Shown here: in pieces, positions 11,070-20,300 of the stretch | Numbering within the stretch: position 1 is the first letter of the stretch | How the letters are laid out: every line of letters starts with the position of its first letter | NCBI RefSeq assembly: GCF_963675165.1 | Contig: NC_087385.1 | Coordinates: 5,539,412 to 5,603,411, forward strand | Direction of reading: 5' to 3' | Source of the DNA: Halichondria panicea | Lineage: Eukaryota; Porifera; Demospongiae; Suberitida; Halichondriidae | DNA: 64,000 bases | The notes under the pieces: model-generated | Told to the model about the DNA's origin: nothing | The model's database searches: none | The model's input: only the letters and a program-made list of their open reading frames with translations | Translations under genes and position numbers: made by a program

Positions 11070-12261
11070 GCACTCAATAGCAGAAGAGGGGGGGGGGGGA
11101 GTGAACTAGTTACCTTGTTCTGGGCGTAGACCATGTCCCCAGAGAATGAGCAACGCTCAAACTGAAAGTTCTCAGAGTCGAGTTTCATCAAATACATACC
11201 TCCAGATGAGACGGTGACCTGTGGAGGGAGGGCTTGGTTAGAGACGGTACTGGTACAGCTGTCATCAGTGACCTACCACTTTGGGGTCAGAGCTCTTCTC
11301 CAGGGCAGGCAGTAGCTCAGTAGATAGCAAATAGGTTCCTAGAAGTGTCAAGAATACTGAATTATATATGGCAATGTACACATTCTAAATAGTCACACTA
11401 GGGAAATCAAAGTGGATACAAGAAACAACCACTCTGTAAAGCAAGTAATTAATAATCAGGAAGGGATTTTTGGGGATGCACACACCTAGTGTATTGGTGG
11501 CAAAGTTTCTCTCTAGTCCATCTTCAGTCAGCTCTCTCTGATTCACCATGGTACCAGCATTGTTCACCTGCAAATTTAGCAAGTTTACACAGAGGCGTCT
11601 CGAATGTACACCTCACCAACACATCCAGTTGCTGGTCAGACTTGACAAAGTCGTCGGCAAATTTTATCACATCTCGCGGCTTTGAGATGTCCAACAAGTG
11701 CAGTTGTACTTTCTGAGCAAATAAACGTCCGAATATTCACTCTCATAGCTACTTGATAACATGCACAAAAACATACGTACAACATATAGAAAATTTCCTT
11801 GTACGCACATCATTCCCTGTCTGTGATACGATGTCTTGTTTGGCCTCTTCCCCACGGGTAGAGTTCCTGCATACAATGTGCACCGTGGCCCCTTTACCGG
11901 CCAGAGACAGAGCTGTGCTCCTACCGATCCCACTATTGGCTCCGGTAATCATGTACGAGAGCCTGTATACAAATTTATCAATTATAAACACAATACGCTA
12001 CATATACATTGCATATTGGTACATTATCATAAAAACAAGATCACTCCTCACCCCGATATGTCTCCATCTAGATCTGATGTTTGGAAATTTCGTGCAGCTT
12101 TCTGAAAACCATTCCTGCATGAATACAGACCTTATCATTCATAGGCTAGGAGTTTAGCAAGACAGGGTACTTGGTACTGGTAGGGTTATCTACCTTGTAA
12201 ATTCACTCAACCCTTTGAAAAAGAACACTGACTTTCGGTACAAGCTACTGTTGGTCGCCAT
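10355..12261 (-). CDS. DHRS12: DHRS12-type short-chain dehydrogenase/reductase
   Basis: NAD(P)-dependent oxidoreductase of the classical SDR fold; the substrate of the DHRS12 group is not well defined. Ten exons run from the ATG at 12261 to the TGA at 10357-10355, about 321 aa, close to the vertebrate length. Seen in order: N-terminal SLYRKSVFFFKGLSEFTRNGF; cofactor motif TGANSGIG (about residues 50-57); CRN after the second beta strand; LDISKPRDV; NNAG (about 129); catalytic Ser in TVSSGG and the YAQNK catalytic Tyr/Lys pair (about 206-210); then RQQVV and MHPGWADTP, which are diagnostic for this subgroup. The DRQAVAQHL C-terminus also matches. A long CA repeat fills the intron before the RQQVV exon. 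The gene lies in tandem 268 bp downstream of the PARG stop and converges on beta-arrestin. Confidence 0.95.
11013..11069. repeat. (CA)n microsatellite plus G-run in a DHRS12 intron
   Basis: Pure CA run followed by a run of ten G at about 11090. On the minus strand it forms a TG/C-rich tract leading to the acceptor GTGCATGCAG. Long open frames in this area are artefacts of the repeat. Confidence 0.95.
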
Positions 12262-12528
12262 GTGACAGGCTAAGATAATGGTAGCACAGAAGACTAGGAC
12301 TTTTACTACAACATGCATAAATTTTCTTCACAATCGTTTTGTGCTGATACGTATTTAATTTACTCTCATCATGGATACGGACATGCTTGATTGCATAAAC
12401 ATTACATAACAGCTAACTGCTAACAATGAATAACAGGCTCTGGGCTCAGTACAGTACTGAATATAACTACAGTGTATATACTAGCTAAATGTTTGATTCT
12501 AGATCTGTTCGCAACATAATTATTATAT

Positions 12529-15500
12529 CTACATTGTCTCCATGAGCACAGTAAACAGGTCTTTGGTGGCTCTTTTCTTGGCTGGCTTGTTGGCGTAATC
12601 CAGTAGAGCATTGCACAGCTGACCAGTTGTGGTTCTCTTGGACATCAGACACTCCGTCACCATGGCCAACTGTAGGGGGTGAGTATATGTTACCTGGTGA
12701 ATACATTAACACTGACATTAAAATAGTCTACAAACACAACATTTCATGCGAATACAACACATGCCCCAGGCTCTTAATTACCATCACATCCTTAAGTGTT
12801 CTACACAAACACATTAAATTGGCTCGAAGAATTAAACACACATGTACACTATAACCACACTCACCTCTTTCAGCTCCTGATTGTTGAAGGTGTAGTAGAT
12901 CATCTGAGGTCTGTCACACATTGAAGCCACGACCCATTGAAGCATACACTTGACCTGTCGATCACCCTTGAATGCACCACACCCCCAGTTGCCGGTAGCA
13001 ATGGGACGAAGTAGTGCCGTCTTGAGCTTCTGCTGAAAGCTGGCCTCCTCTCCTGAGCTCTGCGATAATACCTCCGCTTGCTCTAGCTTACTTAGGTAAG
13101 AATCGATGGTGCTTTCACTAGTTGGAATTATCATATTAAAAGCATCATAGCCGTCATCGACCTGACTTAGTCGCAGACGTTTAGGCCTCTCTCCACACAC
13201 GCTCAAAATGGCATCGCTCATGAGAATCTTGGTGAAGATGTGCATATAGTCATCGGGGTCTGACACAAGACCAAGAGCTATACGATCAAGGTCTGTTGGG
13301 GAAACTGGCCGAGAGCTTTCATCTCGTGTGGATGCTGTGGACCAGGCATAGCCCATGCTGTGACGAGAGGAACTGGGAGTGAGAAGCCGAGGGTTGAGCT
13401 GACCAGAAAATGAGGGGGTATCGATGTCAGAGTGTTCACTTAGTTCGGAAAAGGATCCTCTTTTGGACATTCGAGCAGCAACAATGGCCAGCTCTTGTTT
13501 TGAGAAGAGCAGTCGGCTCTTGAGAAGTTTCCTTGCCATGTTTGGAGCTTCTTGCTCAGATAACGATGATGGCTGCTCGTCCGTAAGCAGCAGTGTTTTT
13601 GGTGGAGCAACTTTAGAGCTTTCTTTCAAGCTATCCAAAATCGATTGAGTGACTTTCTCTGCTACTTGTTCTGCGCCTTCTTTGGTCACTTGAGGGGGGA
13701 CAATATTCAGCTCCATGCTCTGACTGGTGTACTGGGCAATTGAGAGCCCATCTCTAATCAGATTTTCAGCAAGTTCGTCAGTAAATTCGTGGACTGTGAT
13801 CGACTGTCCAGTTAGACTGGAGGAGCGAGAACTTTTAGGGCTTTCATTAACTCCAGAGGAACCTCGTCTCTCGACTTGAATAAAGATAGTGGGATTATTG
13901 GAAACGCTTCCAGGAGCTGGCTGAGAGAAAGCACTGGCTACAATGTCACTAGCCATTTGATCAGAGAATAAATCCAGTGACTCGTTCGTCATTTCACCAG
14001 AAGTTTTTGTGGAGGAGGGTTCAGGAGAGACAGTTGGTTCCAACGAAGAGTACACGTCAGCAATGATGGACCTCGCAATCTCCTCGGCTTTAGCATCATC
14101 GAGTGTAAATTTTTTCGTCTCAGACTCCATAGAGGATTTCAAAATGGCAGAGGATAGAGAAAACGTAAGATCATCAATGCCAGCTGGCTGCTTGACAGGG
14201 TCTGGGGTATTTTTCTTGGAGGTAGTCGAAGAACGAACGTTATCAAACAGAGAGCTTGCCACTGTGGATGCAAATCTATCAACAGGACTGTCTTGGTCTT
14301 CGGATATTGTTACACCATTTGGCTGCGGTTTCGACTGAACATCACTGAAGAGAGAGGTAACCAGAGAGGAAGCATAATCGCTAACAGTTCGCCTGTCTTC
14401 CGTTTCTTTTGTCTTTTTCTTTGTTGCCTCGTGGACACCAATATTTATGATGCCATCTGCATAGTTGGCAAACAGATTGGATTCGCTGAGCTCTTTGATG
14501 GGAGAGAGGGGAGGGGGCCCTGGGTACTCAACCAGAGAAGGCTTGAGCTGAGAAGAGGAGTTCAAGTTACCCAGAGGAGGATCGGATGACCAGGTTGAGG
14601 ATTGATGGTGGTTGGGATAGTACTCGGCTATAAAGGCCATGGAAGGTCCCTGACTACGTAGTGCAATGAGTTCCGTTGATATGTCTCCTCGATCTTGTAC
14701 GCACATAAAGCCAGCGTACGCCTTGTTCAACTCGCGAAGGATCATCTCATGCTCGAATTGTTTCTCGGGTGATTTTCCAAATGGGTAGGCATCAATGGCG
14801 ACAGTGCTGGTCAAGATGTTTCCAAATACATCTCTCTGCAAAAAAACAAGGGCAACATTAAAAAATGTGCATTAAATAAACTTAATCAGCCCATGCTTGA
14901 AGGGGATTCCCCTATGCAAATATATGCAAACACTGCACACCTACGTACATGTAATGTGTACACTAAACACAGCTAGTACGCATGCAGCTACTGAGACTGG
15001 TAAGGAGAGAGCTTACCTCGGCAATGTCTTCATGCTCTCCGGCAAACTCGAAGGTGTCTCCGTAGCCTGTACACTTTGAGAACTGCTCAGCACCCTGTGA
15101 AAGCAATAGACACATCAGCTACAATGACAGGACACAGAGGACTAAGTCATACGATGATTTAATTGTGACTGTGCTACAAGAATGGTTCAAAAACAGGCCC
15201 ATTTCGGGAAAATCATCCAAGCTATAAAATTATATAGTCCATTCCATTCCTTTGCGAATCGAACGTTTCAATACTAAATAGGCATTTCAAAAGGGTACAA
15301 AATGCATAATTATTTTAGTACATAATTAAGTTATGAGCATTCAAAGTAGCTAATACAAAAGGGCTCATGATTTTTTTTCGAATATTTTGATCCAAAAACA
15401 ATTACTGATAATTAGATATAATTAGATCTAACATAATATTGGCACTCTTTCTTACAGTGATGATAATGGCTTCATTGTCTTCCATATGGTCCATGATGAG

Positions 15501-17358
15501 CCGAGAGATTAGGAGCTCCGGGAACAAGCAGAACTTGATCTCCTCCTGCACGCACCCTCCACGCAACACACCACCACCGATCTTCTTGTTGGCAAAGTCC
15601 ACCTGTAGCAGTCAACAAGGTGCTTATTACAGAGCCAATACTGCACAAATACTCCCGTTTCCAGATGGCTCTAATGGATGAACATTTGTTCATACCTAGC
15701 CGTACTTGTCAAGGTAGGTACAAGCACAGCGACAAGTGCATGGACTCAATCAAGGTAGTGTACAGCATTCCCCAAGGGCTAAAGCAAACCACAACACCCC
15801 CACAAAGCCCACACAATATCCTGCTTAATCGGAAACAACCAAAAGACAATGAGCCCAGCGTATGTCCCAGAACTGGAGGGTAAGGTGGTCAGGGAAAGAC
15901 ATGAACAATTACCTGGAGAGTGTGTGAACCTGATGATTCGATAGTGTGTGTCTCGTCCACCGTTAGGTTACATAAGGGCTTCTGGCTGGCCGTCCAATCA
16001 GATAGCGTCAGCTGGTCCTCCCTCTCAATCACCTGTACGTGTACGTGTAATATTGAAACGAGTGTAGAGTCTAAATACACAGTGTTTATAAAATAGGTAT
16101 TTGTTATGTAAACGAGTATACACACTTTCAAGTCAGTGGGTAGTCAATTGGTGGACCTTAACCTTGGTACCCACCCTACACAAACAAACACACACACCTG
16201 TCTCCTGATTGTTATCATTCCCGCTAGATCGGCTTTGTTTTCAGCCGCCTTCTGAAAGTATGCAAGAATACACTTGAGTTTGCCTGCCCTTGAGCTCAGT
16301 CTCTTCCCTTCACTGCAAGTACATACAGAGATACTTATACACACAGAGTGGCAGCGTTAAGCATGCTTATACACGCAGAGTGGCAGCGTTAAGCTTCAAA
16401 AATACAAAATGCAAAGCTTCATAGAGGAACTTAGCTCTAAGAGAAACATTGACACGTACTTATTGATCTTATTGATATATAATTATAATTATGATGACAG
16501 TTTCATTTCACTCACTTTTTGAAGGCTGGAAACATTTGACTGAAGCTGAAGGTCTCCATATGTTTGTAGCCACTCTCGGGGAAGGTGCAGAGGAAGGCAT
16601 TAGCAATGAGACAAAGCACCAGCTTGCGTCCCAGTACAAGAGAAGCAGCTGTGAATGTGTGCATTAAAAATACATAGCATACTGTGAATGTAGCTATAGC
16701 AATTATATATATCTAGTTGACTCAAAGTCACCGTACCCACGATATAACTATATCCAGTCTCTCGATTGCAAACAGTAGTAATTTGTTAACGCTCACGGTG
16801 GTAATTTGTGACAAAGACTACTGTACAGCATTGTTGACACCAAAGTCTTGACCTCTAGACCTCAAACATTTACCCAACTACATGTACGTAGGTACCTTCT
16901 TGTTGGATGATGAACGGGATTCCACAATCTGGTACCAGGTCGTCCAGTTTTGAGGCCATCTGAGCAATGAATGGCAGTGTCTCACGCATATAGATATCTC
17001 TCTCACTGCTCGTGCAGTAGTCCTTGAGGAACACAACCAGACCACTGAGCTGCTCAAGTCTCTTGGATAGAACTGTGGGTTCTGAGTCTTGACGAGTGTG
17101 AGAAGCGATCAGAAGGTCCAGATCCTTGACACTTCTTATACTGGATAGCAGTAGAAACAATCGCTTGTCCTCCCACCATTCTTCAACCTCACAAGGCAAC
17201 AGAACACGAGCCATGATGATAAGCAACAACTTTTTACTCTTGGGCTTGTAAGGATTGGTAAGAATCATTACAGTCCTAGCCAACAAACAGGGAACTCCAC
17301 GTGGCTGCTTTAGTGGAACCTGAGGCCAGGAGAGAAGAGAAGCTATGGCCTTGAACAT
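12529..17358 (-). CDS. PARG: Poly(ADP-ribose) glycohydrolase with a split macrodomain
   Basis: Hydrolyses the ribose-ribose bonds of poly(ADP-ribose). Eight exons: 17358-16896, 16648-16516, 16312-16198, 16032-15913, 15602-15456, 15094-15017, 14835-12865 and 12669-12529, giving 1055 aa in frame. Residues 1-240 form the helical accessory part (QQEAASLVLG, LIANAFLCTFP, KLKCILAYFQK). The macrodomain follows: QVDFANKKIGGG with the catalytic QEE (residues 296-298), ITGAEQF, TGYGDTF (the Tyr clasp region), VAIDAY and RELNKAYAGF (to 395). After about 570 extra residues the domain resumes with ATGNWGCGAFKGD (965-977) and MIYYTF. The normal linker is about a dozen residues. All signature residues are kept, so activity is plausible. 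The long N-terminal regulatory region of vertebrate PARG is absent. The start is uncertain: the frame is open about 13 codons upstream without an ATG, and the proposed ATG overlaps that of ZRSR2. Confidence 0.93.
13000..14706 (-). other. PARG insert: array of AKAP-like amphipathic helices
   Basis: Residues about 396-964 of the PARG product, inside one exon. Low-complexity Ser/Pro linkers separate about nine similar segments: YADGIINIGVHEA (475-489), DYASSLVTSLFSDV (505-518), DRFASTVASSLFDNV (538-552), DDLTFSLSSAILKS (573-586), EEIARSIIADVYSSL (603-617), DQMASDIVASAFS (644-656), DELAENLIRDGLSIA (705-719), EQVAEKVTQSILDSL (741-755) and NMARKLLKSRLLFS (784-797). The shared pattern is acidic-x-x-A-x-x-[hydrophobic]2-x-x-[small/hydrophobic]2-x-x-[hydrophobic]. 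This is the spacing of helices that dock to the RII dimer of protein kinase A (established for AKAPs; its application here is inference). Two PKA-type sites, RRGS (675-678) and KRGS (810-813), lie between the segments. Confidence 0.7.
16334..16398. repeat. Short tandem duplication in a PARG intron
   Basis: Two copies of a roughly 33-bp unit (CTTATACAC.CAGAGTGGCA...) directly upstream, in the PARG reading direction, of the exon at 16312-16198. Confidence 0.8.
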
Positions 17359-20300
17359 GCCTCCAGATGAATGGAGAAGCTTCAGGTAAGGTTGTATGCC
17401 TAGCTAGTAGTAGTGAGTATACTCCAATACTGCAGCCATAAGAGGCGAAGGCAGCTGATTAACAAAGAGAGGAGGAGAAGGAAGAGAGTGACAGAGGCAT
17501 TGCAGAGAGAACAAAGTTTGTTAATTTACTAGCTCCTGTACAGTTGTATCATTACCCAGTTGTATATTTGTCGTACATTAGAACAAGCTGTTCTCGAACA
17601 AGACCCTGATTATCTGTAAGTTCTGCCCTTCAAATTATTTATTTTTAAAATGTAACCAAATAGTAATAGTATCTTGTCCCATTTCAGTGAGGAGTTGTGT
17701 GCTGAGGAGAGGAAGGTAGCAGAGGGTGAGCGACAGAGGGCTCTGCAGGAGGAGCAATGGCGGGAGACAGAGAGGGTGGCACAGGAAGAGTTCCGGAGAA
17801 AGAGGGAGGCCCAAGAGAAGGTCCTCAGAGAGAGAGAGGAAAGAGAGGTGCAGTGTTACACGTGTTAGTAGCGTTGTTCCATTATGCCATACTGCTTAAA
17901 AACGATTCAGTCAGATTATGATAGCAGAGTTGTATGCAATACGTGCACACCTACATGTATGTACCGTGTAGCGGGTATATTTCGAGGGTATAAACTTTCG
18001 CGGAATGACTGTTAGAAAGTTTCACGGATTTAATTTTCGCGGAATAGCAGCCCTTGGGCAGTATGCATGCATACATGCAATATTAAATTCATGTTCGTGG
18101 TACATGCTTAATCAGCGAAAATCACGAACATTTATACCCTCGAAATATACCCGCTATACGGTATGCTATAACACATAATATATTCATTAGCTGTTCCCAT
18201 GCAGCGTTTGATTCGTGAGGAGTGGGAGTCACTGCAGAGTAGGGAGAGAGATGAGGAGGAACGACAAGAGAGGGCACGGAGAGACAAAGAGGTGACCATC
18301 CCCTTCATTCTGACCAATATCCTCATCATATTCACTGACTGCTAATGTTAACTAAAATAGTAGTTGCTTATTACAAGGACTGTGGTTACTTGTCTTGACC
18401 ATCTTCTCACTCGTTTGGCCAGGAGAGATTGCAGGAGGCGCTCAAGACAGGGGAAACCCCCTTACACCAGGTACCTACACTGTACATGATTATCCTTCTG
18501 TAAACCATATTGTGCAAAATGCTTATTATTATGCCTCGGTGTGCATGCGCAAGCGAGGTATACAGTAGTGTGTGTGTGTGTGTGTAGACTGCTACAGCTG
18601 CTCAAGGATCAATGAAGCGCAAGTAAGAGTTTCTATAGGCTTCTAGTCATGTTTTCTTGGATTTTTATTCGTGGATTTGCAAAATAATGATTCGTTCTCG
18701 AGTTATGCCTAGTTTTGCTTACTTGGAATGCCATTGCAGCCTTTTTGAAAGAGCACGTAGCCAAACTTGTTTACCAAGTGTTGCTACTCTACTTAGTAGT
18801 TAGCTCTGCACTAGAACGCTAGTTATTGGTAGCTGCAAGAGTGAGAAGAGAGCTGCAAGGCTCTGCTGATGGCAGCCATTAATTTTACTTGAACTTTGGC
18901 ATCGATCGTTTTTAACAACAATCATGGTCGATCATTACCCACTCTTTGAGTTTACATGCAGCATGCAGCATGCAAATTAAAAAATGTTCGTCATGTGTAT
19001 AAAATTAAGCTATTAGTAGCTTTATGTTATGTAGCTTTGGTATCTCCACCGAGGCATCAGCACCTGCGGTGCTTTCATTGTTTACTGTTTGATATAGAAT
19101 ATTACAAGGTTTTATGTAACGGGTTTAGATTTGAATAGAAGTATATATAAGCCCTTTCAAGTGGTTTACAAGATATCCACATGTCTATGTAAATTTAAAT
19201 TTGAAACCCTTTAGACATCGTGGGCGTCCCCTCGCTGGACACCTGAATCTTCTACTCCACCGTCATCCCCACCCACACAAGCCACACCATCACCACGACC
19301 TTCACAAAATCCTAACTACGGCACAGAGCAGGACCCTCAGTACTGTTCGTTTTATCTCAAGACAGGTGCTTGTCGTTTCAAGGAGAGGTGCTCCAGACAG
19401 CACCCTCGTCCCTCCTCTAGCACGACTCTGATGCTACCTGGGATGTATACTAGTCTGGGCTTTATGGAGCAGCTGGTAGACGACAAGGACCAGGACACAG
19501 GCCTAGAGGTACGTACGTGTGTGAGTGTAGGACACAGGCCTAGAGGTACGTACGTGTGTGAGTGTAGGACACAGGCCTAGAGGTACGTACGTGTGTGAGT
19601 GTAGGACACAGGGCTAGAGGTACGTACGTGTGTGAGTGTAGGACACAGGCCTAGAGGTACATACGTGTGTGAGTGTAGGACACAGGCCTAGAGGTACATA
19701 CGTGTGTGAGTGTAGGACACAGGCCTAGAGGTACGTACGTGTGTGAGTATGCGAAGAAAGTATCTTCAAAGTTACGTGTGCTATTCACCCCTCATTTTTA
19801 TGTGTCATACATATTAATTATTGTGAATTCAGCTGTGTGTTTTACTAGGCTACTGAACATGTGTTTGGCTTATAACCTCTTGCTGCCCTCTATACAGTAT
19901 GATGAAGGGGAGCTCTATGAGCAGTTCATCGTGTTCTACAACGATGTGCTTCCTGAGTTCAGAATGGCTGGAAAAGTCGTTCAGTTTAAGGTAAGTATAA
20001 AATTCATCTATACCAGCATAATAAACAATAACTGCAGGTGTCTTGCAACTATGAGCCACATCTTAGAGGGAATGTGTATGTACAGTTTTCAACGTAAGTT
20101 CACTCTTTCTACTTCATGTAATTTAATTTCTCCATTATGTTCTGTAGTGAGGAGGAGTGTAGTAAAGCCTTTCAGCTGTTCAACGGGAGGTGGTATGCTC
20201 AGAGACAGCTGTCCTGCGAATACTGCCCTGTGCAGAAGTGGAGAAGTGCTATTTGTGGTAAGTTAATATTGAATTGCTTCAATTAGCTAACTTTTGTAAC

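Follow-up and report, generated by a model that had tools for sequence, protein, structure and literature searches.

The window analyzed here, a stretch of 64,000 nucleotides from the sponge Halichondria panicea (contig NC_087385.1, positions 5,539,412 to 5,603,411), carries on its minus strand a gene for poly(ADP-ribose) glycohydrolase (PARG) in which the catalytic macrodomain is interrupted by 569 residues containing a series of helices that resemble those of A-kinase anchoring proteins (AKAPs). The encoded protein is best read as an active-type PARG with an arm of helices that would dock protein kinase A (PKA), and AKAP3, AKAP4, AKAP11 and SPHKAP would probably descend from such a PARG; taken whole, we hold this reading to be an even call. 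The C-termini of the four human AKAPs are described as the C-terminal half of a PARG macrodomain, the N-terminal portion of which has apparently been lost (PMC11377751). Because of this reported relationship, the insert, which a first-pass annotation of the same DNA had treated as an isolated oddity, becomes a possible evolutionary link. What that annotation had observed was confirmed, and its interpretation was right in direction and is partly supported. PARG proteins with domains distinct from those of the human enzyme have been listed (PBZ, Nab2-type finger, G8, transmembrane and Ribosomal_L32e, PMC4245714), and the architectures named there differ from the AKAP-type insert. Among the open-access records listed in a literature search, no title or abstract describes a PARG with an insert of this type, most subscription papers lying outside that search.

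A PARG macrodomain interrupted by a long arm

The insert (positions 13000-14706, minus strand like all coordinates of the gene) lies in the loop that separates RELNKAYAGF from ATGNWGCGAF. Both flanks are PARG core: VAIDAY..RELNKAYAGF on the N-terminal side, where the segment at 14707-14835 comprises the strand VAIDAY and the helix RELNKAYAGF, and ATGNWGCGAFKGD on the C-terminal side, where the segment at 12865-12999 comprises the diphosphate-binding loop TGNWGCGAFKGD and LQWVVAS..YYTF. Each of these segments is matched by Pfam and by solved PARG structures, so that homology to solved PARGs is present on both sides of the insert. The two segments and the insert occupy a single large exon (12865-14835) of 657 codons that is free of stops throughout, as the first-pass annotation had claimed; the insert, put there at about 570 residues, measures 569. 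At the local base composition, an open run of 569 codons would arise by chance with a probability of about 9e-13, and the other five frames of the insert contain 21-42 stops each.

The PARGs compared were the window gene, its paralogues in the same genome, and solved and human PARGs. In the paralogues on contigs C8, C12 and C13 the same loop has 17, 10 and 15 residues, and in human PARG 13 (residues 408-420 of 4a0d), which agrees with the dozen or so given earlier as normal at this place. Canonical PARGs thus share with the window protein their domains, signature and diphosphate loop, but have 10-17 residues where it has 569. The C12 paralogue (L002, G000:C12:3938241-3938819) has a degenerate signature, GFGVSGTQEE replacing GGG..QEE, and is possibly inactive. 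Beside the C8 paralogue, an open reading frame (ORF; L001 positions 1-1110, L017) appears by eye to combine a J-domain with a HEPN region, as in sacsin.

In the spliced window protein, Pfam finds PARG_cat_N (E 1.5e-23) and PARG_cat_C (E 1.4e-75), both above the curated cut-offs, and the part preceding the insert matches solved PARGs with E down to 2.3e-52. The PARG signature, defined as GGG-X6-8-QEE (PMC4030884), is intact as GGGVLRGGCVQEE. By its sequence, the window gene is a canonical PARG and probably encodes an active enzyme. The end of the insert directly adjoins the diphosphate-binding loop, which with its G[AV][FY] motif is described as a wall of the pocket for ADP-ribose (PMC4030884, PMC7050489).

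The insert itself is a Ser-rich chain carrying eight or nine amphipathic helices and is best read as a flexible arm. No significant relative was found in Pfam, NCBIfam or the PDB, and a match to DUF6842 (E 0.075-0.11) was set aside. A search of the sponge's own genome (131 Mb in 39 contigs) returned a 70-bp DNA copy on C2 and a 26% match (E 0.62) to a large ORF. The copy is a segment of the insert (14461-14530) that is 100% identical over 70 bases to an intron in L015 (G000:C2 near 2834807), a gene that looks like a WD40-repeat gene and in which no similarity beyond the copy was found; the DNA was perhaps copied in during break repair.

Anchoring-type helices and their probable partners

For helices that anchor PKA, a consensus has been published as LxxxAxxIVxxAIxxA (PMC3682517). 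The helices of the insert were scored at seven of its positions, with residue classes taken from AKAP-IS, Ht31, D-AKAP2 and AKAP18, and with a hydrophobic moment compared with shuffles. Four of them fit the consensus well: H2 (VSDYASSLVTSLFSDV, 14338-14385, P 0.009) and H3 (VDRFASTVASSLFDNV, 14236-14283, P 0.015) agree at 7/7 positions, and H5 (AEEIARSIIADVYSSL, 14041-14088, P 0.057) and H8 (AEQVAEKVTQSILDSL, 13627-13674, P 0.004) at 6/7. Another four agree at 5/7, namely H1 (FANYADGIINIGVHEA, 14425-14472, P 0.052), H6 (SDQMASDIVASAFSQP, 13918-13965, P 0.24), H7 (TDELAENLIRDGLSIA, 13735-13782, P 0.019) and H9 (APNMARKLLKSRLLFS, 13501-13548, P 0.47), and the weak H4 (IDDLTFSLSSAILKSS, 14131-14178, P 0.16) at 4/7. 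The hydrophobic moment has P <0.06 in H1, H2, H3, H5, H7 and H8, and in H4, H6 and H9 it does not rise above shuffles. All except H4 contain a generalized form of the motif, [YFLIMV]Axx[LIVM][LIVMAST]xx[LIVMAGSTR][LIVMFYA]. The count of about nine AKAP-like segments put forward in the first-pass annotation stands as eight or nine in the register of the published consensus; the literal spacing proposed with it, [DE]xxAxx[LI]Vxx[LA]F, fits one segment only.

Clusters scoring at least 6/7 occur five times in the insert, one of which is H6 read four positions out of register, against 0.66 in shuffles (2/3000 shuffles reach five). Two clusters score 7/7, a number equaled in 1/3000 shuffles, and at the 5/7 level there are nine against 5.1 in shuffles (95/3000 as many). 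The generalized motif, which was chosen with the insert in view, has 8 matches there against 0.22 in shuffles and against 24 in 30,432 residues of 110 six-frame control ORFs, many of them non-genes (0.45 per 570 residues, with a maximum of 4 per ORF). Its [YF]A form is found three times in the insert and once in the 30,432 control residues. The insert helices have the same hydrophobic spacing as those of RIAD, AKB-RI (both selective for the type I regulatory subunit, RI), AKAP-IS, Ht31, D-AKAP2 and AKAP18, which are single helices, whereas the insert is predicted to hold eight or nine.

As to which regulatory subunit would be bound, the type II subunit (RII) named in the first-pass annotation is not supported as such. 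RIAD (LEQYANQLADQIIKEATE) binds RI-alpha with a dissociation constant of 1 nM and RII-alpha with one of 1800 nM; the corresponding values for AKB-RI (FEELAWKIAKMIWSDVFQQ) are 5.2 nM for RI and 450 nM for RII, and AKAP-IS and Ht31 prefer RII (PMC4526808). The aromatic-Ala start of RIAD recurs as Tyr-Ala in H1 and H2 and as Phe-Ala in H3, and H2, H3 and H6 have a Phe at position 13, as in AKB-RI. Because of these resemblances, binding of RI, or of both RI and RII, appears at least as likely as binding of RII alone.

The genome encodes candidate partners of both types. PKA RII is represented by L009 and L019, with a dimerization/docking (D/D) domain, an inhibitor-like site RRKSVFAESYEP and VHPKSDDQRRSL in L019; RI is represented by L010, with a D/D domain and a match to a cyclic nucleotide-binding domain 2 kb downstream. 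Further D/D domains of the RIIa type, which are possible partners of the array, are found in L011 (C9:6065034), SPA17-like by eye, and L012 (C14:6247968).

The likeliest role of the helices is to dock PKA regulatory subunits (RI, or RI and RII) by their D/D dimers, and if they do so, several PKA holoenzymes would be tethered to one PARG. The Ser-rich arm would interrupt the macrodomain in the loop just ahead of the diphosphate-binding loop, and the macrodomain should still be able to close, because the arm departs and returns within a single loop. Once anchored, PKA would then phosphorylate the arm or its neighbors at sites of poly(ADP-ribose) turnover. Possible PKA sites in the linkers, recognized by pattern only, are RRGSS (13855-13869) and KRGSF (13450-13464). 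Sites of the form [RK][RK]x[ST] occur five times in the insert against 1.19 in shuffles (P 0.005), and the stricter RRx[ST] once only (P 0.21).

Possible relationship to AKAP3, AKAP4, AKAP11 and SPHKAP

In all comparisons with these AKAPs, the sequences used were not database copies; hmmscan checks bear out those of AKAP3 and AKAP4, cover that of SPHKAP in the C-terminus only, and do not extend to that of AKAP11. Two features are common to these proteins and the window PARG. Both end in the C-terminal half of the PARG macrodomain, and both carry an array of [YFLIMV]Axx[LIVM]-type helices ahead of it. Applied unchanged, the generalized motif matches 14 times in AKAP11, 7 in SPHKAP, 5 in AKAP4 and 4 in AKAP3 (some matches overlap), against 0.27-0.51 in shuffles, and its [YF]A form 10, 3, 2 and 2 times, respectively. 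An ungapped PARG pattern spanning VATGNWG through LQW.AA. scores best at the C-terminal piece in 4/4 AKAPs, and the whole span is scored as well by 0, 1, 2 and 1 of 60 shuffles for the four. The C-terminal half in the window protein is common to all PARGs and is therefore not diagnostic of the AKAP_110 family. From that family the window protein differs in being a complete enzyme, which keeps the accessory domain and the GGG..QEE signature.

The Pfam profile AKAP_110, searched through the sponge genome with E up to 10, gives two matches only (E 0.21 and 0.65), both of them PARG paralogues. The C-terminus of the C13 PARG, with its exons joined by eye, reaches E 1.3e-4 and 20.9 bits, the curated cut-off being 25. 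In the order of its helices, the insert resembles AKAP4 and AKAP3 to a modest degree (4/200 and 6/200 block shuffles as good, respectively; 1/500 in a separate shuffle test).

If the insertion site is common to the AKAPs and the window PARG, a remnant of ..VAIDA..RELNKAYCGF is expected ahead of the AKAP array. The PARG helix RELNKAYCGF finds its best place near the N-terminus in three of the four proteins: it ranks first among 840 places in AKAP3 (residue 44, WLRRDLEKSTAEFQ), among 841 in AKAP4 (residue 113, WLLSDLQKYALGFQ) and among 1687 in SPHKAP (residue 170, CIIFEINKFLIGLE). In AKAP11 the site at residue 140 (FIFSLLSKYATGIR) ranks 24th of 1897. The four sites are aligned together by MAFFT when the N-termini are supplied. 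With hhalign, the N-terminal half of PARG (6 sequences) and the AKAP N-termini (4) align collinearly up to the RELNKAYCGF helix; 3/150 column shuffles are as good, and a reversed control scores 7.6 against 18.3. The pairs proposed for SPHKAP and PARG are VCFVN.. with VDFAN.., NEIVVLSG with NEAIIITG, and EINKFLIGL with ELNKAYxGF. Retention of an N-terminal macrodomain piece in AKAP3, AKAP4, AKAP11 and SPHKAP is suggested but not established by these alignments.

An intermediate would be expected to keep the macrodomain entire and to carry an AKAP-type array immediately ahead of its C-terminal half, as the window gene does. The gene looks related to the stage at which the four AKAPs may have originated. 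The vertebrate proteins would probably descend from such a PARG by loss of the enzyme and retention of the anchor. A stronger version, in which AKAP3, AKAP4, AKAP11 and SPHKAP are themselves split-macrodomain PARGs, with a macrodomain piece kept at either end and the array at the site seen in the window, and the window gene represents the ancestral, still enzyme-competent form and probably a binder of type I PKA, is offered tentatively and with rather less than even confidence.

Evidence against and alternative explanations

Several results weigh against a PKA-docking PARG from which these AKAPs descend, and the AKAP sequences compared were not database copies. AKAP_110 has no match at E 10 in the spliced window protein, in the insert with the C-terminus or in the C-terminus, and RII_binding_1 (PF10522) likewise has none in the insert, the C-terminus or the spliced protein even at E 10; RII_binding_1 finds no match anywhere in the genome either, which makes that search uninformative. 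Among five PARG C-termini, the closest is that of the window gene for AKAP4, of C13 for AKAP3 and of C8 for SPHKAP, so that the window C-terminus is not the nearest PARG to the AKAPs overall. The similarity in helix order, modest in AKAP4 and AKAP3, is absent for AKAP11 and SPHKAP, where an in-order alignment with the insert is not upheld (54/200 and 87/200 block shuffles as good, respectively). For the N-terminal remnant, the collinear hhalign result has E 0.026 and a probability of 1.85%, and the helix score is reached by shuffles of the same protein in 1/60 cases for AKAP3, 5/60 for AKAP4, 57/60 for AKAP11 and 14/60 for SPHKAP. With the VAIDA strand pattern the N-terminal site expected is located in 0/4 AKAPs, and when the four AKAPs are aligned with MAFFT over their full length, the helix site falls outside the best five of 103 ungapped blocks.

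The missing AKAP_110 match in the window protein, the array order not common to AKAP11 or SPHKAP and the C-terminus that is not uniquely near the AKAPs would all be accommodated by convergence, in which a PKA-binding array arose separately in this lineage, with no common descent with AKAP3, AKAP4, AKAP11 and SPHKAP. Mutations or insertions are described as having repeatedly given rise to AKAP helices (PMC12203939). Convergence demands a large coincidence, however, as the same type of helix would have entered the same host protein at the same flank, directly before the C-terminal half of PARG, and we regard it as possible but unlikely.

A further alternative is that the insert is a low-complexity chain whose amphipathic segments serve another role, such as self-association or regulation of PARG, and bind no D/D domain. 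A 6-of-7 helix score alone is weak evidence: clusters of at least 6/7 are common elsewhere, with 29 in 7051 residues of other ORFs (2.3 per 570 residues), 11 of the 29 sitting in one low-complexity ORF and none reaching 7/7. The unremarkable hydrophobic moments of H4, H6 and H9 also fit this account. Against it, the generalized motif, which was fixed after the insert had been seen, occurs 8 times where 0.45 are expected, and a chain that binds no D/D domain seems improbable to us.

The array could instead dock another D/D protein (SPA17-, ROPN1- or DPY-30-like) and act as a D/D scaffold rather than a PKA anchor. The genome encodes the extra RIIa-type domains noted above, and proteins that interact with D/D domains without binding PKA have been described; the same source gives four helix turns as needed by DPY-30 partners and five by PKA regulatory subunits (PMC12203939), and the insert helices match RIAD and the AKAP consensus across 16 residues. 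This too has a low probability, and docking of PKA is preferred.

Removal of the insert from the main transcript, as an exitron or part of an alternative exon, is very unlikely: by one set of splice-site weights, under which the true introns sum to 8.8-21.9 bits, a donor-like TAT|GTGCGT at the start of the insert (14704) combines with an acceptor at 13358 to 13.5 bits, in frame and leaving 120 residues, but no in-frame pair leaving at most 40 residues exceeds 5.4 bits, and the frame of the insert is open over its whole length. An exitron removing the whole insert thus scores weakly, whereas partial exitrons such as 14704-13358 may occur.

Gene organization and neighboring sequences

The PARG gene extends from about 17256 to 12527, the former being an arbitrary in-frame cut and not the start. 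It comprises an upstream exon with part of the helical accessory domain (16896-17256), identified by splice joins and its PARG match, followed by exons placed by their splice joins at 16516-16648, 16198-16312 and 15913-16032. The exon at 15456-15602 holds the catalytic signature (15540-15578) and is matched by solved PARGs as well; it is followed by the exon at 15017-15094 (GAEQFSKCTGYGDTFEFAGEHEDIAE), the large exon with the insert, and the last exon (12527-12669), which encodes the PARG C-terminus and ends in LMETM-stop. The seven introns measure 165-361 bases and are all GT..AG, and the two that flank the large exon are in phase 0.

Downstream of PARG on the minus strand, a neighboring gene (11749-11997) resembles a short-chain dehydrogenase (YMITGANSGIGRSTALSLAGKGATVHIVCRN). 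Tandem repeats at 19355-19791 yield peptides like LHSHTYVPLGLCPTLTHVRTSRPVSYTHTRTYL in all three minus frames, and because of this they are probably non-coding satellite-like DNA. Elsewhere in the genome, two cathepsin-L-type copies lie 3 kb apart (L041 and L042, G000:C6:4947247 and 4950268) and encode identical protein over 216 residues; when silicatein was looked for among 77 cathepsin-family matches, the catalytic Cys was present in 6/6 copies read.

Implications for the AKAP family

If the array binds PKA, cAMP signaling would be physically and directly linked with poly(ADP-ribose) turnover. If the descent proposed here is correct, it would explain how an eraser of poly(ADP-ribose) became a family of PKA scaffolds, AKAP3, AKAP4 and AKAP11 among them, and the two ends of AKAP11 and of SPHKAP would be predicted to pack into one macrodomain. 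The main interest of the gene is evolutionary: in this sponge a complete PARG has the array in place, matching the remnant reported in the human AKAPs.

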